Made by a program: the position numbers and the translations under genes. A DNA stretch of 64,000 nucleotides from Anaerolineales bacterium. Lineage in GTDB: Bacteria > Chloroflexota > Anaerolineae > Anaerolineales > UBA11579. Shown here in pieces: positions 5,288 to 39,441 of the stretch (positions are counted from its first letter, which is position 1; each line of letters begins with the position of its first letter). The notes under the pieces were generated by a model that did no database searches, was not told where the DNA came from, and saw only the letters and a list, made by a program, of their open reading frames with translations. The DNA lies in the NCBI GenBank assembly GCA_026129335.1, contig JAHCIH010000006.1, forward strand, positions 1-64,000. The letters are read 5' to 3'.

Positions 5288-6199
5288 CTAATTTTGTTCG
5301 TATGCCTGTGAAATAAAAGGCTCTGCTTTAGAAATGTCTTCTCTCGAAGATATGGTGATTTCCAGATCACCAGTTCCGTAATGACCAATGTTTGAAACAT
5401 CTCTGCTGAAGCCAGGCTCCATTGTGTAAGACAATGGATTTAGCTTCAGGAAGAGGACGACTTTTTTGGATTGTGGATGGACTTCGACACACAAGAAATT
5501 CTTGATTCTCGAAAATGCTGTGTAGAGCTTGAGCTGCTTTACCTTAACATCATCACCAAGGTTAGTTGTGAAAGTTTTAATTTCCTCGTACCAATTCGCT
5601 TGTTCAGGGGAGAGTTTCTCCAGCTTTGTTTGGAAGGTTGCAGTTGAGCGACTAGCCTTGTTTATTCCCTGACGACCTTCGTCTAACGCCTGCCCTGTTG
5701 TCGAATTGACTAATTCAAGCAAGAACAAGTCGTTGTTAAATTTTTTGTACTGAAACAGTTCAATATTGCGGCTAATTTGTTTGACCGCATACTCGTCATA
5801 TTTGAAAAATTGATTTGCTATACAAATTAATCTGGCAGTGGCCCATTCGATTTTGCTGGCTTCCTGGCTACCAAACATGTTTGAGACCAGCAATTGATAT
5901 TCCGCTTTATGGTCTAGCAGCCAGTCCAGATAATAAAGACCTTGATTAATCACATTTTCATTTGCGGCTCTTTTGTATTCTAAAATCACAGGGCTGTTGT
6001 TTTCATCCAAGCCAAGCGTATCAATCCTGCCGCCATGCGTTTTCCCAGTCGAATATTCGCTCGCGAGAAAACGAATCCCAAATAAGACCTCGAGGTTCTT
6101 TTCAATTATGGTCTGAAGCGACTTTTCAATTGGGTAAGATTCACTTTGCACCTCGATTAAAGATTGCCCAGACCGAGTGAATAATTTGATGTCTCCCAT
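5288..6199 (-). CDS. DUF5655 domain protein with nuclease-like N-terminal domain
   Basis: A 303-residue protein. The N-terminal part contains EYSTGKTHGGRIDTLG, ILEYKRA and NENVINQGLYYLDWL (about residues 45-90). This is an Asp...Glu-X-Lys core like NucS/DUF91-type nucleases. The C-terminal part (about 190-300) matches the DUF5655 pattern ending in a beta-rich region. Base composition is visibly A+T-rich against its neighbours, which suggests transfer. I chose ATG 6199 (MGDIKLF), which fits the family's usual start. ATG 6238 would add 13 residues. A TATAAT lies exactly six bases upstream of 6199. It probably acts on nucleic acid, perhaps in defence or repair; no partner gene confirms this. Confidence 0.75.
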   Translation of the reverse strand: MGDIKLFTRSGQSLIEVQSESYPIEKSLQTIIEKNLEVLFGIRFLASEYSTGKTHGGRIDTLGLDENNSPVILEYKRAANENVINQGLYYLDWLLDHKAEYQLLVSNMFGSQEASKIEWATARLICIANQFFKYDEYAVKQISRNIELFQYKKFNNDLFLLELVNSTTGQALDEGRQGINKASRSTATFQTKLEKLSPEQANWYEEIKTFTTNLGDDVKVKQLKLYTAFSRIKNFLCVEVHPQSKKVVLFLKLNPLSYTMEPGFSRDVSNIGHYGTGDLEITISSREDISKAEPFISQAYEQN

Positions 6200-6205
6200 T
6201 TGTTG

Positions 6206-6244
6206 ATTATAAATGCTCGCAACTGAAGTAAGAGCCATTACAAT
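6206..6244. promoter_or_regulatory. Divergent -10 elements each six bases from a start codon
   Basis: Minus strand: TATAAT at 6206-6211, then six bases, then ATG at 6199. Plus strand: TACAAT at 6239-6244, then six bases, then ATG at 6251. In both cases the expected transcription start coincides with the A of the ATG, as in leaderless messages. Neither has a good -35 hexamer or a Shine-Dalgarno sequence. Confidence 0.45.
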
Positions 6245-6250
6245 CTTTCT

Positions 6251-7504
6251 ATGCTGACCATCGATCTGCAGACCGCGCGGCGCTTCATCCTCGGCAAGCA
6301 GGGCCTGTGGCCCGGGCGCCGCTGGCAGGGCGCCAAGGGTACCGAGCAGGCGATGCGCGCCATGGAGTACCTGCAGCTGGACCCGCTGCAAATCATCGCC
6401 CGCAGCCAGGACATCAAGCTCTACAGCCGTGTGCTGGATTACAAGCCGGCCATGTGGGAGGAGGCGGCTTACAAGAAGCGCAAATTCTTCGACTGGGGCG
6501 GTTGGCTGGCCGTGCGCCCGATGGAGGAGCTGCCGTATTGGCGGGTGGTGATGCGCCGGGAGCGAGAGGGCGACGGCCGGATCAGCGCGCAGGGCGGCGA
6601 GCATGGCGATGCCATTGCGGAGATGCGCGCCATCCTTAAGCAGCGTGGCACGGTGAGCAACCGTGATTTCAAGATGGACGCCCGCAAGCGCACCCAGGAC
6701 TATCGCGGCCGCAAAGACAGCGCCGTGGCCCTGTATTACCTGTGGCGCACCGGCGAAGTGATGACCCATCACCGCGAGAACTTCGAGCGCGTGTATGCGC
6801 TGACCGAAGCCGTGGCGCCCGCCGAGCTTATCCGTGAGGCGGGCGAGGCCGAGACTGACTTGTTCTTGATTCGCAAAGAGGTCAGCCACAATGGGTTCAC
6901 CCGCCTGCAGCGCACCGCTGAGGCGTACTTCCGCGGCGTGCCTTTTGAGAGGGCAGCCCAGCTGCGCGAAACCTTGCTGAGCGATCTGGAAATCGTCGAG
7001 GTGCAGGTGGAAGGCTGGAAGCAGGTGCATTGCGCTTTGACCAGTGACACCAAACTGCTGAACGAGCTGGCCGCCGGCCGCGTGCCCAAGGCCTGGAAGC
7101 CCGCCGGCCCGGACACGACCGAAGAGGTCACCTTCCTGGCGCCGCTGGACCCGGTCAGCGCCCGGGGGCGGGCGACGCCGCTATTCGGCTTCGACTACGT
7201 CTGGGAGGTCTACAAGCCGGAGGACAAGCGCAAATACGGCTACTACGTGCTGCCAGTGTTGTGGGGCGACCGGCTTGTGGCTCGCTTCGACAGCAAGCTG
7301 GACCGGACGACCAACACCTTCGTCATCCTGGGCCTGTGGCTGGAGGATGAGAAGCTGGGCAAAGACGAAGCCTTCGCCGAGGCGCTGGCCCGCGGGTTCG
7401 CCCGCTTCGTGGCCTTCCTCGGCGCGGACAAGCTGGACGCCAGGGCGATCAGCCAGCCGCTGCTGCGCAAGCGGGTCTCGGCCATGAAGAGCGGGGCGGT
7501 GTAG
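6251..7504 (+). CDS. Winged-helix DNA glycosylase, YcaQ/AlkX family
   Basis: A 417-residue protein of the HTH_42 family, which comprises AlkZ/AlkX (YcaQ) DNA glycosylases that unhook bulky or interstrand-crosslinked alkylated bases. Residues Q42-L-D44 in EYLQLDPLQ form the catalytic QXD motif expected of the AlkX/YcaQ branch. The long winged-helix array continues through REREGDGRISAQ and MTHHREN, with a C-terminal beta domain (about 290-400) containing FGFDYVWE. Length is normal for the family. It diverges from the DUF5655 gene, leaving only 51 bp for two promoters. It is probably involved in DNA repair. Confidence 0.88.
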   Translation: MLTIDLQTARRFILGKQGLWPGRRWQGAKGTEQAMRAMEYLQLDPLQIIARSQDIKLYSRVLDYKPAMWEEAAYKKRKFFDWGGWLAVRPMEELPYWRVVMRREREGDGRISAQGGEHGDAIAEMRAILKQRGTVSNRDFKMDARKRTQDYRGRKDSAVALYYLWRTGEVMTHHRENFERVYALTEAVAPAELIREAGEAETDLFLIRKEVSHNGFTRLQRTAEAYFRGVPFERAAQLRETLLSDLEIVEVQVEGWKQVHCALTSDTKLLNELAAGRVPKAWKPAGPDTTEEVTFLAPLDPVSARGRATPLFGFDYVWEVYKPEDKRKYGYYVLPVLWGDRLVARFDSKLDRTTNTFVILGLWLEDEKLGKDEAFAEALARGFARFVAFLGADKLDARAISQPLLRKRVSAMKSGAV

Positions 7505-7510
7505 TTCGTG

Positions 7511-7532
7511 CCGAACCTGTCGATTGGTTCGG
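7511..7532. other. Hairpin after the YcaQ-type gene
   Basis: CCGAACC (7511-7517) faces GGTTCGG (7526-7532) with an 8-base loop, a few bases after the stop at 7504. No T-run follows, so it is at best a weak or factor-assisted terminator or an mRNA 3'-end stabiliser. I saw no gene in the rest of the gap to 7801. Confidence 0.45.
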
Positions 7533-7801
7533 AAATGTCTCCTGTGTAGCTTGTGTCGGTTGTGTCGCCGCCGGAGGCGTGCCAGGCTGCGACTGCCTTC
7601 TTCGGCGGCATGGCCTGGGGATGTTGTGGGCCTGATTATCGCGCCAGCAGAGACGGCGAGGGTGGATTGGGGCCTTTTGTCAAACCATTGCTCAGCCAGG
7701 TTGAAGTCCCCCTTCACTTGCAGCGAAACTTAGTCTCCACCGGTTGTATGGATTAAGCGCCCCTGCCGCACTATGCTTCTGGGCAAGGAGCGTAGTTTTC
7801 C

Positions 7802-8206
7802 ATGCATAAGATTGATGTTTCGCAAAAGCCTGTGTACATCCTCCACAGCATTGAGCCTTTGATGAAGGAAGATGCGCAGGCGATTATTGACATGGGCGAG
7901 GAATTGATCGCTGCTAATCAGCCCTTTGCCCTGGTGATCGTAAACGTGGGGGAACATGACGAAGGCCGTGAAAGAGGAGCAAATGCCATGATGACCCAGT
8001 GGGTCAAGAAGGCCAAACCGGGTCTGGAACGCCTCTGCGCCGGCGCAGCCTCTGTGGTGGCCAATAGTCATCTGCTGTCCATCTACCAGCCGATCATGAA
8101 GACGGTGGGTGCGCGCATGTATGGGTTCCCACTGGAACTATTCACAGACATAGAAGAAGCCACACAGTGGGCCAGAGGGCAATTGGAAAGGGCTAAAGCA
8201 GGGTAG
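7802..8206 (+). CDS. Small conserved protein of unknown function
   Basis: A 134-residue soluble protein starting at ATG 7802, with AAGGAG about 12 bases upstream. It has an alternating strand/helix pattern: a first beta-strand PVYILHS, a helix containing EDAQAIIDMGEELIA, a hydrophobic strand FALVIVNVG, and a final YGFPLELFTDIEEATQWA. The last segment resembles the C-terminal helix of SpoIIAA-like/STAS-type domains, where an acidic helix follows a short strand, but similarity to that family is only suggestive. It is followed by a strong terminator, so it is monocistronic. No function is assigned. Confidence 0.6.
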   Translation: MHKIDVSQKPVYILHSIEPLMKEDAQAIIDMGEELIAANQPFALVIVNVGEHDEGRERGANAMMTQWVKKAKPGLERLCAGAASVVANSHLLSIYQPIMKTVGARMYGFPLELFTDIEEATQWARGQLERAKAG

Positions 8207-8286
8207 GCGCTCAACGCTGACCCCAGGTTGGCTCATCTTTTTTTCAGGCGCGCCACCTAAATTTCCTGTATAGTGCCGCAAAACAG

Positions 8287-8319
8287 GGTTGTTCATTTTC
8301 AATGAACAACCTTTTTGTT
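8287..8319 (+). terminator. Strong intrinsic terminator upstream of the FIST gene
   Basis: An 11-bp perfect stem (GGTTGTTCATT / AATGAACAACC, loop TTC) is followed by TTTTTGTTT. It could simply end the small gene stopping at 8206. However, a -10-like TATAGT lies just before it (8269-8274) and the FIST start codon only 17 bases after it, so a leader attenuator is also possible. Confidence 0.8.
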
Positions 8320-8335
8320 TATCGCCGAGGTAACC

Positions 8336-9475
8336 ATGCGGCTTGAAACTTTCGCCTATTCCAAACAGGGCGGCTGGACTGCCCAGCCGTTCCCCGGCGC
8401 GGACTCTGAACAGACTCTGGTGATCGTCTTCGGAGCATCCGGCTTTTTGGATGACCCCCAACCCATCCACGACCTGCTCGCCGCTTACCCCAATTCGCGG
8501 GTGATGGGCTGCTCCACGGCGGGCGAGATCTACGAAACCCACATCAGCGACGATTCCCTGTCTGTGGCGGTTGTCCAGTTCGAGCATACTCGGGTGGCTT
8601 CCGCCTCCACCAAGGTCAGCTCGGCGCAAGATTCGTACCGTGCCGGCGAGTTCATCGCCAACCAGCTGGCCGCCCCCGACCTGGCGGCCGTCTTCGTGCT
8701 CTCCACCGGCACCAACATCAACGGCAGCGAGCTGGTGCGGGCGCTGAACGACCGCCTGCAGGGAGATGTGGCCGTCACCGGCGGGCTGGCGGGGGATGGC
8801 GACCGCTTCCATCGCACCTGGGTGCTGGACAACCGCGAGCTCGGCGAAAACTGCGTGGCCGCGGTGGGCCTGTATGGCGAGCGAGTGCGCGTGGGGCACG
8901 GCTCCAAGGGCGGCTGGGACGTCTTCGGGCCACAGCGGCTGGTGACCCGCTCCGAGGGCAACGTGCTCTACGAGCTGGATGGCAAGCCGGCTCTGGACCT
9001 GTACAAGGAATACCTCGGCGACCTGGCCTCCGGGCTGCCTTCCAGCGCGCTGCTGTTCCCGCTGGCGTTGAGTGAAGACCGCGAAGACACCAAGAACATC
9101 GTGCGCACGATTCTGAGTGTGGACGAGGAAGCCAACTCGTTGATCTTCGCCGGCGATATCCCGGCCGGCTATTACGCGCAGTTGATGAAAGCCAACTTCG
9201 ACCGGCTGATCAATGCCGCCGGCGAGGTGGCGCAGATGGCCGCGGCCGCGGAGCTGCCCGGCGGCGCGGTGCTCTCGCTGGCGATCAGCTGCGTGGGGCG
9301 CCGGCTGGTGCTGGGCGAGCGCACCGAGGAAGAACTGGAAGCCACGCTCGAGGTACTTCCCGAAGGCGTGAAGCAGATCGGTTTTTATTCCTACGGTGAG
9401 ATCTCGCCGTACAGCAACGGCACCTGCGACCTGCACAACCAGACGATGACCCTGACCACTCTGCAGGAAATTTAG
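8336..9475 (+). CDS. FIST-domain sensory protein
   Basis: A 379-residue protein with FIST_N (about 27-225, including GCSTAGEI at 58-65) followed by FIST_C (about 225-365, ending near EISPYSNGTCDLHNQT). FIST domains are predicted intracellular sensors of small ligands, possibly amino acids, and are typically linked to signalling enzymes. The start is ATG 8336 with GAGG 5-8 bases upstream; an in-frame ATG at 8315 lies in the terminator tail and is less likely. The gene ends 6 bp before a PAS-GGDEF-EAL gene. This suggests that the FIST protein is the input arm of a cyclic-di-GMP module. Confidence 0.92.
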   Translation: MRLETFAYSKQGGWTAQPFPGADSEQTLVIVFGASGFLDDPQPIHDLLAAYPNSRVMGCSTAGEIYETHISDDSLSVAVVQFEHTRVASASTKVSSAQDSYRAGEFIANQLAAPDLAAVFVLSTGTNINGSELVRALNDRLQGDVAVTGGLAGDGDRFHRTWVLDNRELGENCVAAVGLYGERVRVGHGSKGGWDVFGPQRLVTRSEGNVLYELDGKPALDLYKEYLGDLASGLPSSALLFPLALSEDREDTKNIVRTILSVDEEANSLIFAGDIPAGYYAQLMKANFDRLINAAGEVAQMAAAAELPGGAVLSLAISCVGRRLVLGERTEEELEATLEVLPEGVKQIGFYSYGEISPYSNGTCDLHNQTMTLTTLQEI

Positions 9476-33723: not shown

Positions 33724-34416
33724 CTATTTCTTTGGCTGCAAATGCCGCAGCCCGCCGGCTCCGGCGACGAAGACGTCCGTGGCCAAGCCGAGGAACAGGC
33801 CATGTTCCAGGATGCCGCTGCGGGCTTCGAGCGCGGCGGCCAAGGCCGCCGGGTCGGCGATGGGGCCGAAGTCGCAGTCCAGCAAATAACTGCCCTGGTC
33901 GCTGAGCGCCGGTTCGCCGCCGGCGGCGAGCCGCAGGGTCGCTTGCCCGCCCAGGTTAGCGATGAAGTCGGCCTGGCGCGCCCAGCCGAAGGGCAGTACC
34001 TCAACTGGCAGCCGGAAGCGGCCCCCGACGCGTTCGGAGAGCTTGCCCTCGTCGACGATGATGGACAGGCGGCGGCTGTTCTGCGCCAGGATCTTCTCGC
34101 GCAGCAGCGCGCCGCCGCCGCCCTTGATCAGGTTGAACTGCGCATCCACCTCGTCGGCGCCGTCAATGGTCAGGTCGAGATGGGCGTGCTCGTTTAGCTC
34201 GGCCAGGGGGATGCCCAGGCGCTGGCACTCGGCCTGCGTGGCCCGCGAGGCGGGCACGGCGACGACCTCGGCCAGCTCGCCGGCCGCCAGGCGGGCAGCC
34301 AGCGACACCAAGGCAAACTGTACTGTGCTGCCGTGGCCCAGGCCCAGCGCCATGCCGGGCTGAACCAGCGCCACGGCCGCCTCGGCGGCTTGTTGTTTGT
34401 AGGCGTCAGTGCTCAT
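33724..34416 (-). CDS. rpiA: Ribose-5-phosphate isomerase A
   Basis: A 230-residue RpiA that interconverts ribose 5-phosphate and ribulose 5-phosphate in the pentose-phosphate pathway. Key motifs are GLGHGSTVQFAL (phosphate loop, about 24-35), the catalytic-region DGADEVDAQ (about 86-94) and KGGGGALLREK (about 99-109). Length is normal. It overlaps the end of pgi by 4 bp, giving a two-gene sugar-phosphate unit at the head of this minus-strand operon. Confidence 0.96.
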   Translation of the reverse strand: MSTDAYKQQAAEAAVALVQPGMALGLGHGSTVQFALVSLAARLAAGELAEVVAVPASRATQAECQRLGIPLAELNEHAHLDLTIDGADEVDAQFNLIKGGGGALLREKILAQNSRRLSIIVDEGKLSERVGGRFRLPVEVLPFGWARQADFIANLGGQATLRLAAGGEPALSDQGSYLLDCDFGPIADPAALAAALEARSGILEHGLFLGLATDVFVAGAGGLRHLQPKK

Positions 34417-36020
34417 GGCAGCAGGCTCTTCAAGGCGGTGTCTATCTCGCCTTCGATATGGAAGGATAGCACGCGGCGGCCGGCGGCGCGCAATGCCGCC
34501 GCATCGCCTGCTGCCTGCGCCGTCAGTAGCGTCCCGAAGCCGAGGCCGCTGCCTGGTTTGCCTGCCTCGTCGGGGATGGCCAGGTCAGGCTGGGGCGCGG
34601 CGTTGAGCAGTTGCACGAATAAGCCGTTGCCGGCGTCGCCCTTGTGCAGTTGCCCGGTGGAGTGTAGGAAGCGCGGCCCATAGCCCAGCGTGGTTGCTAA
34701 GCCGGTTTCCTCGCTCAATTGGCGGCGCAGCGCAGCCAGCGCTCCGTCCGCCCCAGGGGTCTGCGCCAGGTAGGCCTGAATAGCGATGTAGTCGCCGGGC
34801 TTGGCTCGGGCGAGGAAATCTTGTAAAGCCGCCTGGCTTGGAGGGGCACTTTCGCCCTGGGGCAGCGCGCCGGTTTGTTCATACTCGCGCAGAAATTCGC
34901 GTGCCCCCACTTTGGCGGCTTCTACATCCGGTTGGTCGAAGGGGTTGACGCCCAACAGCCAGCCGGCGACGGCGGTGGCGAACTGCCAGACGAAGAATTG
35001 TGCGCCCAGGTCGGCGTTGCTACCCCAGTCGAGATGAAGGCCGACATGTTCTCCATTCGAGGTCCCGTCGCCGAAATAGACGAAAGCACGGTCCGCGCCG
35101 TAGCGCTCGGCGGGCAGGGCGGCTTCGCGTACTACGGGCAATATGCCGTGCCCAGCCTTGCCGGTGCTCTCGGCGATGAGCTGTTCGGCCCAGTCGGCGA
35201 AGCCGCCGCGCCGCTCGTCGAGGCTGATGGTCAGCTTGTCGCGTCCGGCCAGGGCCAGCGCGCCCATCGCCAGCCCCAGCTGCGTGCCGGGGTTGTCCGC
35301 CGGGTCGGCGGCCTTGCAGCGTTCGGCCATCGCCGCCGCCGAGGCCAACAGGGCGGGCAGGTCCGCGCCGAGCAGCGCCGCCGGGACCAGGCCGAAGTGA
35401 GACAGCGCCGAGTAGCGCCCGCCGATGTCGGGGTCGGCCAGGAAGGCCCGCCGGAAGCCGTAGCGCTCGGCGGTCCCCGCCAAGCCGCTGCCCGGGTCGG
35501 TGATGGCGATGAAGTGCCCGCCGACCCGCCCCGGCCCCAGGGCGTCCAGCGCCCCGTTGTAGAAATACTTGAAGAAGGAGAGCGTCTCCACTGTGCCGCC
35601 GGACTTGCTCGAGATGATGTACAGCGTCTCCTCCGGCGGGTGGGCGACGGCTGCCGCCAGCACGGCCGTCGGGTCGGTGCTATCCAGGATGCTCAAGGCC
35701 AAGCCGTCGTCGCTGCCGAACAGCGCGGCGTACAGTTCGGGCGCCAGGCTGGAGCCACCCATGCCCAGCAGCAGCGCTTTGCGGAAGCCGGCCGCGCGCG
35801 CTTCGGCAGCGAAAGTCTCCAGCGCTGGGATTTCGGCCTGCATGCGCTCGGCAATGTCTAGCCAGCCCAGCCGGTTGCTGATCTCGGCGGCCAGCGGCGC
35901 CCAGAGGGTGTGGTCACGGGCCCAAATACGTTCAATGACGCGTTCAGCGCGGGCTTTTTCGAGCGCTTGCTCGTAGGCGGCCTGGTATTTGTTGAGGTGC
36001 AGACTGATGTTGACCGTCAT
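34413..36020 (-). CDS. pgi: Glucose-6-phosphate isomerase
   Basis: A 535-residue member of the PGI/SIS family. Signatures are LLLGMGGSSLAPEL (about 84-97), the phosphate-binding SSKSGGTVETLSFF (about 137-150), and a C-terminal region with FGDGTSNGEHVGLH. It has two SIS domains and catalyses glucose 6-phosphate to fructose 6-phosphate. The sequence is of the divergent type found in Chloroflexota and actinobacteria, often annotated beside or fused with transaldolase. No transaldolase is fused here. It is the first gene of the operon; a CTTTGTG repeat lies 12 bp upstream of its ATG. Confidence 0.93.
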   Translation of the reverse strand: MTVNISLHLNKYQAAYEQALEKARAERVIERIWARDHTLWAPLAAEISNRLGWLDIAERMQAEIPALETFAAEARAAGFRKALLLGMGGSSLAPELYAALFGSDDGLALSILDSTDPTAVLAAAVAHPPEETLYIISSKSGGTVETLSFFKYFYNGALDALGPGRVGGHFIAITDPGSGLAGTAERYGFRRAFLADPDIGGRYSALSHFGLVPAALLGADLPALLASAAAMAERCKAADPADNPGTQLGLAMGALALAGRDKLTISLDERRGGFADWAEQLIAESTGKAGHGILPVVREAALPAERYGADRAFVYFGDGTSNGEHVGLHLDWGSNADLGAQFFVWQFATAVAGWLLGVNPFDQPDVEAAKVGAREFLREYEQTGALPQGESAPPSQAALQDFLARAKPGDYIAIQAYLAQTPGADGALAALRRQLSEETGLATTLGYGPRFLHSTGQLHKGDAGNGLFVQLLNAAPQPDLAIPDEAGKPGSGLGFGTLLTAQAAGDAAALRAAGRRVLSFHIEGEIDTALKSLLP

Positions 36021-36273: not shown

Positions 36274-36966
36274 CTATTCGTCCTTGTGAGCGCTGGTCGC
36301 TAAAAGCAGTTCCCGGCCCTGCCAGCCGCATTCTTCCAGCAGGCCCATCTTGCGCAGGCAGTAGCTGATGCGCGTGCTTTGGCGTACCGTGGCGCCCAGC
36401 GCTTCGGCCAGCTGCTTGTGGGTGAAAGGCGTGCCCAGCCCAGGCGGCAACAGGCGCAGGTAATCGCCCACATCGGTGAAATCATGTTCGGCGACCACCT
36501 CGAGCAGGCGGCGCTCGGTGATGCTCCAGTGCTTGCGCCGCCAGGAGCCGGCGCCGTCGTCGCGCCAGACCTCCTCCTGCTCGGTCAGCACGGCCTTGAA
36601 GGCGAAGTTGGGGTGCGCGGTGATGGCGGGGATGTAGAGCAACTGCTCGAAGATGTCTTCCACGCGGCCGCGCTTGGGCGATTTGCGCCGGGCCACCTGG
36701 CGGCCATCGTTGTCCTGCCGCAAAATCCACTTGCTTTGCGCGATGGGGTAGACCAGCAGCACGTGGTGCTCTTCCAGCAGGGCGGCCAGCTTGCGGCGCA
36801 GCGCTGAAAAATTGCCAGTCTGGATCTCGATGAGCAGGTCGCCGCGCAGAATATCCACCTGGTAGCCATCCACTTCCTGCTCGAAGCGGTCGCCGGCCTG
36901 CGCCAGGTGCTGCTTGAGCGCGGCGTGCAGCCCCTGCTCGCGCAGCGTGCCAATGTGGTTGCTCAC
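36274..36966 (-). CDS. Putative PD-(D/E)XK nuclease-like protein with winged-helix C-terminus
   Basis: A 230-residue soluble protein starting at GTG 36966, which overlaps the dinB stop by 4 bp (GTGA). The N-terminal half has the order expected of a PD-(D/E)XK fold: a helix LHAALKQHLAQ, E31 in FEQEVDGYQVDIL with D38, then LIEIQTGNF with E47 and Q49 in place of the usual Glu-X-Lys, then helix SALRRKLAALL. The C-terminal part (about 178-212, FTHKQLAEALGATVRQSTRI) looks like a winged helix-turn-helix. I recognise no named family. Coupling to dinB suggests a DNA-damage role. The nuclease call is inference. Confidence 0.6.
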   Translation of the reverse strand: MSNHIGTLREQGLHAALKQHLAQAGDRFEQEVDGYQVDILRGDLLIEIQTGNFSALRRKLAALLEEHHVLLVYPIAQSKWILRQDNDGRQVARRKSPKRGRVEDIFEQLLYIPAITAHPNFAFKAVLTEQEEVWRDDGAGSWRRKHWSITERRLLEVVAEHDFTDVGDYLRLLPPGLGTPFTHKQLAEALGATVRQSTRISYCLRKMGLLEECGWQGRELLLATSAHKDE

Positions 36967-38180
36967 CCTTCGGCCTTGAGCTCGCCGGCCCGGCGGATGG
37001 CGCTCTCGCCGTACTCGGCCTGCAGGGCGCGCACGGCCTTGTCCAGGCGTTCTTGTTTGTCGGCGGCCTGGGGGTTCCAGTCCCACAGATTGAGCTGCTT
37101 GCTGGGCAGTCCCAGCTTGCTGACGCCCACGCCCAGCAGGCGCAGCTTGCGGCCCGGCTTCCAGTTCTGGTGGAAGAGCTGCAACGCGGCGGCCTCGATC
37201 TTGACGGCGTCGTCGCTGGGCTCCGCCAGAGTGCTCTGGCGAGTGATGGTGCTGAAGTCCGGCCAGCGCAGCTTGATCTTCACCGTCCCCCCGTACAGCT
37301 CCAGCCGGCGCAGCCGGTTGGCGATGCTCTCGGATTGCGACCGGATCAGGCTTTCCAGCAGGCGCTGGTCATCGGTGTCGCGGGCGAAGGTTTCCTCCTG
37401 GCTGATCGATTTCGTCTCGCCCGAGGCGTGCACCGGGCTGTTGTCGATGCCTTGGGCGCGGCGCTGCAGGTCGATGCCGCCCTGCGGGCCGAATTGGCGC
37501 TGCAGCTCGCGCAGCGGGTGCGCAGCGATCTGGCCAATGGTGTGCAGGCCCAGCTCGGCCAGGCGTTCTGCCGTCTTCGGTCCCACGCCCCACAGCGCAT
37601 CGCAGGGCAGCGGCGCCAGGAAGGCGGCTTCCTCGCCCGGCGGGACGCGCTGGATGGCGTTGGGGTACTCGCCGGTGCGCACAGAGCCTTTGCCCACCTC
37701 GGTGGCGATCTTGGCCACTAGCTTGTTGCTGGCGATGCCCAGCGAGGCGTAGAGCTGCAGGTGGTCGCGGATTTCCGTCTGGATGCTGCGGCCGATTTCC
37801 ACCGAGTCGCCGGGCAGCTTGCTGATGTCGATAAAGGCTTCGTCAATCGAAATCGGCTGGATGCTTTCCGAATAGCGCTGGATAAGCTCCATCACTTTGT
37901 GCGACATCTCCACATAGTCGCGGAAGTGATGGCGGACGATGATCAGCTCGGGGCAAAGGCGCAGGGCGCGAGCCATGGGCATCGCCGAACGGATGCCGGA
38001 CTTGCGGGCGGGGTAGGAGCAGGAAGCGACCACGCCGCGACCCTCGGGGCTGCCGCCCACGGCGAAGGGCTTGCCGCGCAGCGAGGCGTCGCGCAGTTCC
38101 TCCACAGCGCAGAAGAAGGCATCCAGGTCCAGGTGGATGATGGAGCGCTGTTCAGGGCTGCTGCCGGCTTGTTCGTTCAC
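36963..38180 (-). CDS. dinB: DNA polymerase IV
   Basis: A 405-residue Y-family polymerase for translesion synthesis. Catalytic residues are D18 in HLDLDAFF and D113-E114 in SIDEAFID. The helix-hairpin-helix region has WGVGPKTAERL, followed by the little-finger domain (about 250-355). The end has QLNLWDW, a plausible beta-clamp-binding motif. It starts with GTG (38180) without a strong Shine-Dalgarno and is coupled by a 4-bp overlap to the nuclease-like gene. No LexA box was recognised in the 22-bp gap upstream. Confidence 0.95.
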   Translation of the reverse strand: MNEQAGSSPEQRSIIHLDLDAFFCAVEELRDASLRGKPFAVGGSPEGRGVVASCSYPARKSGIRSAMPMARALRLCPELIIVRHHFRDYVEMSHKVMELIQRYSESIQPISIDEAFIDISKLPGDSVEIGRSIQTEIRDHLQLYASLGIASNKLVAKIATEVGKGSVRTGEYPNAIQRVPPGEEAAFLAPLPCDALWGVGPKTAERLAELGLHTIGQIAAHPLRELQRQFGPQGGIDLQRRAQGIDNSPVHASGETKSISQEETFARDTDDQRLLESLIRSQSESIANRLRRLELYGGTVKIKLRWPDFSTITRQSTLAEPSDDAVKIEAAALQLFHQNWKPGRKLRLLGVGVSKLGLPSKQLNLWDWNPQAADKQERLDKAVRALQAEYGESAIRRAGELKAEG

Positions 38181-38202: not shown

Positions 38203-39405
38203 TTAAATGATGTTCTCGAATTTCAGCGCGGCGATTTCATCTTCGCCTTTGCCGAGCAGCTCCGCGAGCACGTCTTCGCTGTGCTGGCCCAGCAGCGGCG
38301 GGGGCAGGCGCACCTGCGCTGGCTGAGTGGGGATTTGCAGCGGCGAGCCCAGCATTTGGATGGTTTCGCCGTCTGCCAGGGTCGCCTGGGTCAGCATGCC
38401 GCGGGCCGCCACCTGCTCGTGGGCCAGCGCCTGGTCCACGCCCAGGATCGGTGCCGCGGGCACGGTAGCCCGCTCGCAGACCGCCAGCCAGTGGGCTATG
38501 GGCTGCGCGGCGAACAGCTCGTCCAGCAGGGCGATGAGCGCCTCGCGGTGCGCCGCCCGCTGCGGATTGCTGGCGAAGCGCTGGTCCTGCGTCCACTCTT
38601 CACGGCCGATTTCCTTGCAGAAGCGGCTCCACTGCAAATCATTGCCCGCGGCGAAAGCGAAATAGCCATCTTTGGCTTTGAAAGCCTGGTAGGGCACTAT
38701 GTTGGGATGGGCGTTGCCGTAGCGCTTGGGCGGCTGGCCGGAGATGAGGTAGTTGCTGGCCACATAGGACAGCGTGGCGATCTGCGAGTCCAGCAGCGAA
38801 ATGTCGATGCGCTGGCCGGTTTTTTGGCGCTCGCGGGCGAAAAGCGCGGCCATGATGGCGTTGCTGGCATGGATACCGGCCAGCAGGTCCACAATGGCCA
38901 CGCCGACCCGAATCGGCTCGCCTTCCACCTCACCGGTGATGCTCATCATGCCGCCCATGGCCTGGCTGATGAAATCGTAACCGGGGCGGTCTTTCAGCGG
39001 GCCGCTGTAGCCAAAGCCGGTGATGGTGCAGTAAATGATGTCTGGGCGCAGCTTTTTGAGCTCTTCATAGCCCAGGCCCATCTTCTGCAGCGTGCCGGTT
39101 TTGAAGTTCTCGGCCAGCACATCGCTTTGGGTGATGAGCTGGCGCAGGATTTGGCGGCCCGCTTCGCTGCGCAGGTTCAGTGTCAGGCTGCGTTTGTTGC
39201 GGTTGGCGGAGATGAAATAGGCGGAAAGCCCGCTTTGCGTGTAGGGTGGCCCCCATTGGCGGGTATCGTCGCCTTTGCCGGGTTGCTCGACCTTGATCAC
39301 TTCGGCGCCCAGGTCGCCCAGCAGCATGGTGCAGTAGGGGCCGGCGAGGATACGGGTGAGATCCAGCACGCGCACGCCATCCAGCAGGCCTTTCGATTCG
39401 GTCAT
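38203..39405 (-). CDS. Family III CoA-transferase (CaiB/BaiF type)
   Basis: A 400-residue CoA-transferase related to formyl-CoA transferase and carnitine CaiB. The N-terminus LLDGVRVLDLTRILAGPYC and LGDLGAEVIKVEQP are family signatures. FGYSGPLKDRPGYDFISQA follows. The catalytic aspartate is expected in VAIVDLLAG (D173). The acyl substrate is unknown. I chose ATG 39405, with GGAGAGG 8-14 bases upstream, over GTG three codons earlier. A TATAAT at 39425-39430 on the minus strand may be its -10 element. Confidence 0.92.
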   Translation of the reverse strand: MTESKGLLDGVRVLDLTRILAGPYCTMLLGDLGAEVIKVEQPGKGDDTRQWGPPYTQSGLSAYFISANRNKRSLTLNLRSEAGRQILRQLITQSDVLAENFKTGTLQKMGLGYEELKKLRPDIIYCTITGFGYSGPLKDRPGYDFISQAMGGMMSITGEVEGEPIRVGVAIVDLLAGIHASNAIMAALFARERQKTGQRIDISLLDSQIATLSYVASNYLISGQPPKRYGNAHPNIVPYQAFKAKDGYFAFAAGNDLQWSRFCKEIGREEWTQDQRFASNPQRAAHREALIALLDELFAAQPIAHWLAVCERATVPAAPILGVDQALAHEQVAARGMLTQATLADGETIQMLGSPLQIPTQPAQVRLPPPLLGQHSEDVLAELLGKGEDEIAALKFENII

Positions 39406-39441
39406 GTATGACACCTCTCCTCGGATTATAGCTCAAATATT

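Follow-up and report, generated by a model that had tools for sequence, protein, structure and literature searches.

Organization of the locus

The window analyzed in this work is the whole stretch of 64,000 nucleotides taken from the genome of an Anaerolineales bacterium (assembly GCA_026129335.1, contig JAHCIH010000006.1). On its reverse strand, dinB is directly followed by a gene for a 230-residue protein, which we describe here as a predicted nuclease (Table 1). The product of dinB matches the Pfam models IMS (E=1.2e-46) and IMS_C (E=6.5e-28) and the NCBIfam model NF002677 for DNA polymerase IV (312.5 bits, with a cut-off of 256). It keeps the HLDLDAFF and SIDEAF motifs, which we take to be the catalytic acidic motifs of the polymerase, and none of the 11 genomes of the window's genus has an IMS match other than dinB.

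Table 1. Features of the dinB locus and of the protein encoded downstream of dinB (positions in the window)
Feature	Position	Strand	Basis
CoA-transferase family III gene, ending 22 bp before dinB	38203..39414	-	PF02515, E=1.6e-135
dinB, Y-family DNA polymerase IV, 405 aa, GTG start	36963..38180	-	Pfam and NCBIfam matches
GTGA overlap, nuclease-gene start codon (GTG 36966-36964) within the dinB stop	36963..36966	-
Gene for the 230-aa predicted PD-(D/E)XQ nuclease, winged helix at the C terminus, GTG start	36274..36966	-
N-terminal nuclease-like domain, residues 1-164	36475..36966	-	AlphaFold2 model, PDB comparison
E10 to K18 codons, helix 1, with E10, H14 and K18	36913..36939	-	74/74 relatives each
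E29 codon, strand 1	36880..36882	-	74/74 relatives
D38 codon, predicted metal ligand, strand 2	36853..36855	-	74/74 relatives
E47-I48-Q49 codons, E-x-Q half-motif, strand 3	36820..36828	-	E47 and Q49, 74/74 relatives
K59 codon, helix after strand 3	36790..36792	-	74/74 relatives
C-terminal winged-helix domain, residues 165-230	36277..36474	-	AlphaFold2 model, structural matches
Phosphoglucose isomerase gene, downstream of the nuclease gene, 253 bp gap	34413..36020	-	PF00342
Ribose-5-phosphate isomerase A gene	33724..34416	-	PF06026

A preliminary description of this DNA had placed the start of the second gene in a GTGA overlap with the dinB stop. This overlap was borne out at 36966-36963, with the earlier coordinates correct. 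Start/stop overlaps of this type are common in operons, and they therefore suggest that dinB and the nuclease gene are co-translated without implying any special mechanism. A start codon giving the 4-nt overlap is available in 11 of the 16 distinct dinB-adjacent nuclease genes of the window's family, the spacing in the other five being −14, −11, 0, +2, and +41 nt. The nuclease gene is a real gene, given that open frames are found at the 80 homologous loci that were kept of the 82 retrieved by a pattern scan of genome contigs. A homologue of the CoA-transferase III gene is also present at three other loci (L002, L003, and L005), and the phosphoglucose isomerase gene lies 3′ of the nuclease gene in most of the members of the window's family that were examined.

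Fold of the 230-residue protein

The structure of the protein was modeled with AlphaFold2 using 75 aligned sequences, with a mean pLDDT of 94.5 for the whole 230-residue protein and 92.9 for residues 1-164 alone. The N-terminal domain was modeled separately because the structure comparison of the whole protein was swamped by winged-helix matches. In both models, the elements of this domain follow the same order, alpha-beta-beta-beta-alpha-beta (helix 8-21, strands 27-32, 35-41, and 44-48, helix 53-63, and strand 68-84).

Comparison of the N-terminal domain with solved structures using Foldseek gave SfsA, YaeQ, the homing endonuclease I-Bth0305I, and BglII as the first matches, with a best E value of 0.023 and zero matches below 0.001. 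With VIA-align, the top match was SfsA (Z 7.7, 3.4 Å over 112 residues), and YaeQ (Z 6.3), XisH (5.7), NucS (5.5, 2.7 Å over 84 residues), EndoMS (5.3), BglII (5.2, 3.8 Å over 106 residues), BamHI (5.0), and AF2093 also ranked high. None of the solved structures reaches Z 8, and values below 8 may reflect a common arrangement. Two of the first 25 VIA-align matches (5jnm and 5uyy) are plainly non-nucleases by title; of the others, we take nearly all of the top-ranked ones to be members of the PD-(D/E)XK superfamily. No one match is strong; the case for a PD-(D/E)XK fold in this domain is made jointly by the topology, the sequence motif, and the agreement among the listed neighbors. The strand order of PD-(D/E)XK nucleases that the preliminary description had read from the sequence is thus supported by the model and by its nuclease-rich structural neighbors. 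A resemblance to PD-(D/E)XK proteins, weak in each single match, was seen by fold comparison, where the top neighbors nearly all belong to this superfamily, but not by profile-profile comparison, which against 23 SfsA sequences returned a probability of 0.2, i.e., nothing.

The C-terminal winged helix proposed from the sequence is present in the AlphaFold2 model, at approximately residues 165-230. It resembles the winged helices of CadC/SmtB type (CadC, Z 8.1, 2.3 Å over 64 residues) and regulators of the ArsR/MarR type. Searched with the family profile (positions ∼137-225), the PDB gave chains of the ribosomal protein eS25 as the best sequence matches (best E value, 0.0023), and the domain has an eS25/TFE flavor. 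Comparison with a viral fold library gave long alignments without structural agreement, the remaining matches being short and mostly of the helix-turn-helix type.

Invariant residues and predicted active site

Profile searches of whole genomes, with no selection for the motif, yielded 74 relatives in which nine residues (E10, H14, K18, E29, D38, E47, Q49, K59, and P74) never vary. This set has 76 rows, 74 of which have a residue at every listed position, and some of its loci come from genomes also represented in set A1. Sets A1 and A2 omit six of the 80 genome-contig loci, which are cut short (L013, L055, and L064), carry an inserted stretch (L044), or give a partial match only (L067 and L081). 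The motif-selected set has 12 invariant columns. I46 is invariant in that set and varies in the 74 rows collected without the motif. G51 and N52 were rejected as catalytic residues given that they too vary in the latter rows, their invariance having come from the motif used to fetch the sequences.

D38, E47, and Q49, which the preliminary description had singled out, are found at these positions of the protein, and all three are invariant in the 74 relatives chosen without the motif. D38 provides the acidic residue in strand 2 and E47-x-Q49 the half-motif in strand 3 that define the PD-(D/E)XK superfamily, E-x-Q being a described variant. PMC1189080 reports this PD-EXQ variant for BglII and predicts it for CoiA, with an arginine taking the position of a migrated lysine. 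In the protein of the window, K59 may be a stand-in for the usual catalytic lysine. In the model, E10, H14, and K18 are spaced one helical turn apart in helix 1.

The replacement of the lysine by glutamine could mean that cutting is weak or lost, which counts against a functional nuclease. The protein might instead be a regulator of transcription or DNA structure, with an active winged helix and a nuclease fold that merely binds DNA or metal. This would agree with the replaced lysine, with the resemblance of the winged helix to ArsR/MarR-type regulators, and with the nuclease-like domains that PMC1189080 describes in predicted archaeal transcription regulators. Nevertheless, without catalysis it would be difficult to account for eight polar residues in and around the predicted site that vary in none of the 74 relatives, and we regard a purely regulatory role as very unlikely.

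Distribution and annotation of the family

Relatives of the protein occur in Chloroflexota, in Bacillota, including Lachnospiraceae, and in Spirochaetota, as well as in archaeal, acidobacterial, and other metagenome-assembled genomes. Of 301 genomes drawn from the whole phylum, 11 carry the nuclease by profile search, as do 64 of 301 genomes of the order and 50 of 200 sampled Lachnospiraceae. Every one of the 11 genomes of the window's genus has it, as do 22 of 24 genomes of its family, which suggests vertical descent; the two genomes that lack it are 70 to 73% complete. Most genomes have one copy of the gene, and one genome (G410) has four.

When the 75 members were scanned, no Pfam or NCBIfam model covered the N-terminal domain. 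The weak matches to these collections are few, isolated, and mostly to helix-turn-helix or transcription-factor models, so that annotation based on them would leave the members of the family as hypothetical proteins. The PADLOC models gave just sporadic weak matches to the same 75 members (five families; best E value, 0.0004). Literature searches, which also covered reviews of the superfamily, listed no description of a dinB-linked family of winged-helix nucleases. The family is a widespread, unnamed, and uncatalogued group of predicted PD-EXQ nucleases.

The patchiness of this distribution, in the phylum and the order as in Lachnospiraceae, is also what would be expected of an endonuclease of mobile elements that serves in defense, restriction, or homing, and restriction enzymes and one homing nuclease are found among the fold neighbors. 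Such a role is highly improbable, since searches of plasmids, phages, and IMG/VR gave no match to the family, the PADLOC matches are so sporadic and weak, and the gene has housekeeping neighbors in the window's family, in which nearly every genome carries it.

Comparison with known nucleases

BglII shares with the protein of the window the E-x-Q variant and a similar fold, the likeness being one of fold and motif. BglII is a restriction enzyme and is not known to have a winged helix of this type. NucS/EndoMS is likewise similar in fold to the N-terminal domain; it is a mismatch endonuclease with a different second domain. The NucS_C model (PF01939) has no match among the 75 members, and both NucS_C matches of genome G000 sit elsewhere. 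A role as a NucS-like substitute for MutS was rejected, since each of the 11 genus members has MutS_V matches (two in each of 10 genomes; the weaker one alone in the incomplete genome of the window).

SfsA is the closest structural neighbor of the N-terminal domain, and both proteins have the D and E-x-K/Q half-motifs. In the description of SfsA in PMC1189080, however, the motif is ID-EVK and an OB fold stands at the N terminus, in contrast with the E-x-Q and the C-terminal winged helix found here. The SfsA model (PF03749) matches none of the 75 members, and no SfsA was found in the genome to which the window belongs. COG5482, as outlined in the same source, comprises proteins of ∼230 residues, mainly from Proteobacteria, in which a predicted PD-(D/E)XK domain with the motif E-CD-ELK precedes a winged helix at the C terminus. 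By this description, COG5482 has the same size and domain order as the protein of the window; its ELK half-motif is not found in our family, where Q49 is conserved in 74 of 74 members. CoiA, also compared by description, shares the predicted PD-EXQ signature and is a competence protein with another C-terminal domain.

Genomic linkage to dinB

Conservation of gene order was followed in the window's family (f1) and in another family from its order (f92). Of the 22 nuclease-bearing genomes of f1, 16 have dinB immediately upstream in the same orientation. These are the 11 genomes of the genus plus five more, and they include G464, whose dinB is truncated at the end of a contig. In the remaining six genomes, dinB is found within ∼5 kb in three and is not so placed in three others of a single genus. 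Counted by domain coordinates, 18 of the 21 f1 genomes with both genes, to which G464 is extra, have them within 6 kb and on one strand. In f92, the genes are linked in four of the nine genomes with both, side by side in two of them and 1.5 and 3.4 kb apart in the other two, and there the nuclease gene comes first. All 22 pairs within 6 kb in the two families are on the same strand.

Linkage is absent elsewhere. The remaining 39 nuclease-bearing Chloroflexota have an IMS match in 33 cases and linkage in 0 of these 33, and of the 50 nuclease-bearing Lachnospiraceae, 46 have an IMS match, in no case within 5 kb as judged by eye. Three nuclease-bearing genomes (G308, G320, and G283) that are ≥90% complete and ≤5% contaminated have no IMS match. 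Moreover, the phosphoglucose isomerase gene stays beside the nuclease gene in most f1 genomes without dinB there (L174, L175, and L177 to L179), which indicates that the adjacency of the nuclease gene and dinB may be plain synteny. In the tree of the 230-residue protein, deep support is low, and a single origin of the f1 and f92 linkages is not distinguished from separate ones. In f1 and f92, linkage to dinB greatly exceeds chance, but the nuclease family as a whole does not share it. The conserved neighborhood expected in the preliminary description is thus kept in the genus and the family and recurs in reverse order in f92, but it does not extend to other lineages.

The preliminary description had likened the pair to ImuB/DnaE2 systems. 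ImuB is not known to keep the catalytic acidic motifs of polymerases, and the cassette places it next to dnaE2. An ImuA/ImuB/DnaE2 cassette was rejected for this locus, where DinB keeps both of its motifs and the neighboring genes encode a CoA transferase and sugar isomerases, so that the parallel is a poor fit. MmcB from Caulobacter appears to be a better parallel and probably the nearest working model. PMC9578287 describes MmcB as an SOS-regulated PD-(D/E)XK endonuclease and gives the hypothesis that it removes crosslinks together with translesion polymerases. By description, it is like the protein of the window in joining the PD-(D/E)XK fold to a translesion-polymerase theme and differs in its SOS control, which was not seen at this locus. 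Matches resembling GAAC-N4-GTTC, a LexA-type box, occur near dinB and the nuclease gene at chance level, the lone local one being intragenic, and this consensus may not be that of the lineage. A promoter scan of the locus gave no result.

Following the hypothesis made for MmcB in PMC9578287, DinB and the nuclease could form a dedicated module of this lineage, in which the nuclease would cut a lesion such as an interstrand crosslink and Pol IV would fill or bypass it. The adjacency in the genus and family, the shared strand of all linked pairs, the recurrence of the linkage in f92, and the presence of DinB as the sole Y-family polymerase found in each genome of the genus all argue for such a module. 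Nonetheless, it is rather unlikely given that the isomerase gene keeps its place where dinB has moved, that the two genes are unlinked in the other Chloroflexota and in Lachnospiraceae, and that three good-quality genomes have the nuclease without a Y-family polymerase being found. Gene order in f1, and in the linked f92 genomes, agrees with the damage-tolerance module of the preliminary description, and that of the other lineages does not.

Proposed function

The protein is probably a metal-dependent, stand-alone nuclease with a PD-(D/E)XK fold of the E-x-Q subtype that is co-expressed with Pol IV in one clade. The 195 nuclease loci fall into 83 distinct neighborhood clusters, which indicates a stand-alone enzyme. 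We infer that the winged helix would hold the DNA, while D38, E47, and Q49, aided by H14, E29, and K59, would cut the phosphodiester bond. Such an enzyme, encoded on the chromosome, would process DNA and would need no fixed partner. In the Anaerolineales of f1, where the nuclease would be co-translated with the sole Pol IV, the cutting of damaged or stalled DNA and the filling of short gaps would be made available together, and the nuclease may in this way cooperate with DinB.

A narrower reading makes the pair a new bacterial module for processing lesions and gives the nuclease a specificity for DNA structures or lesions. This uncatalogued nuclease, sharing one message with Pol IV, would incise damage for Pol IV to fill or bypass, and the family would serve other repair routes elsewhere. 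Such routes are envisaged for other lineages from single cases in which the gene has as neighbors recO and a PolX-like gene, uvrA, or miaB and mutS. We consider this reading unlikely.

The protein adds a widespread and uncatalogued family of predicted DNA nucleases with clear invariant residues to mutate. Moreover, its position in an operon with the only Y-family polymerase of the genus makes a nuclease-polymerase partnership directly testable.

Other neighboring genes

The neighborhoods were compared with a set of 32 repair proteins (31 from Escherichia coli K-12 plus DinB), PolX and LigD being left out. A repair gene was found within three genes of the nuclease gene in 9 of the 83 clusters, corresponding to 7.4 of 386 weighted genes (∼1.9%), with ∼0.9% expected by a rough estimate. 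Farther out, repair genes were 0 of 137. A general association with repair genes was rejected, since the difference between ∼1.9% and this roughly estimated ∼0.9% is not significant and is suggestive at most.

Several individual arrangements were observed. At L194 (also L103), in genome G462, the last 4 nt of recO are shared with the nuclease gene, and at L194 a gene for a PolX-like polymerase, assigned by eye, follows 57 bp after the nuclease gene. At L010, uvrA (5824-8838) lies directly 3′ of the nuclease gene, at 136 bp and on the same strand. At five loci from Lachnospiraceae (L063, L068, L069, L071, and L075), the nuclease gene is upstream of a miaB-like gene, assigned by eye, and of mutS. 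Also by eye, a YedK gene was seen near the nuclease gene at L004, L171, and L183, and a gene resembling the LigD-type 3′-phosphoesterase was seen upstream on the opposite strand in two archaeal metagenome-assembled genomes (L053, 4489-4944; L059, 2626-3081).

Elsewhere in the window, a gene for an AlkZ-like DNA glycosylase (6251-7504, forward strand; PF06224, E=2.2e-41) is back to back with a gene (5288-6157, reverse strand) for a protein with matches to NucS_C (E=2.5e-6) and to DUF5655 (E=6.8e-11), which places another nuclease-like protein beside a repair glycosylase.
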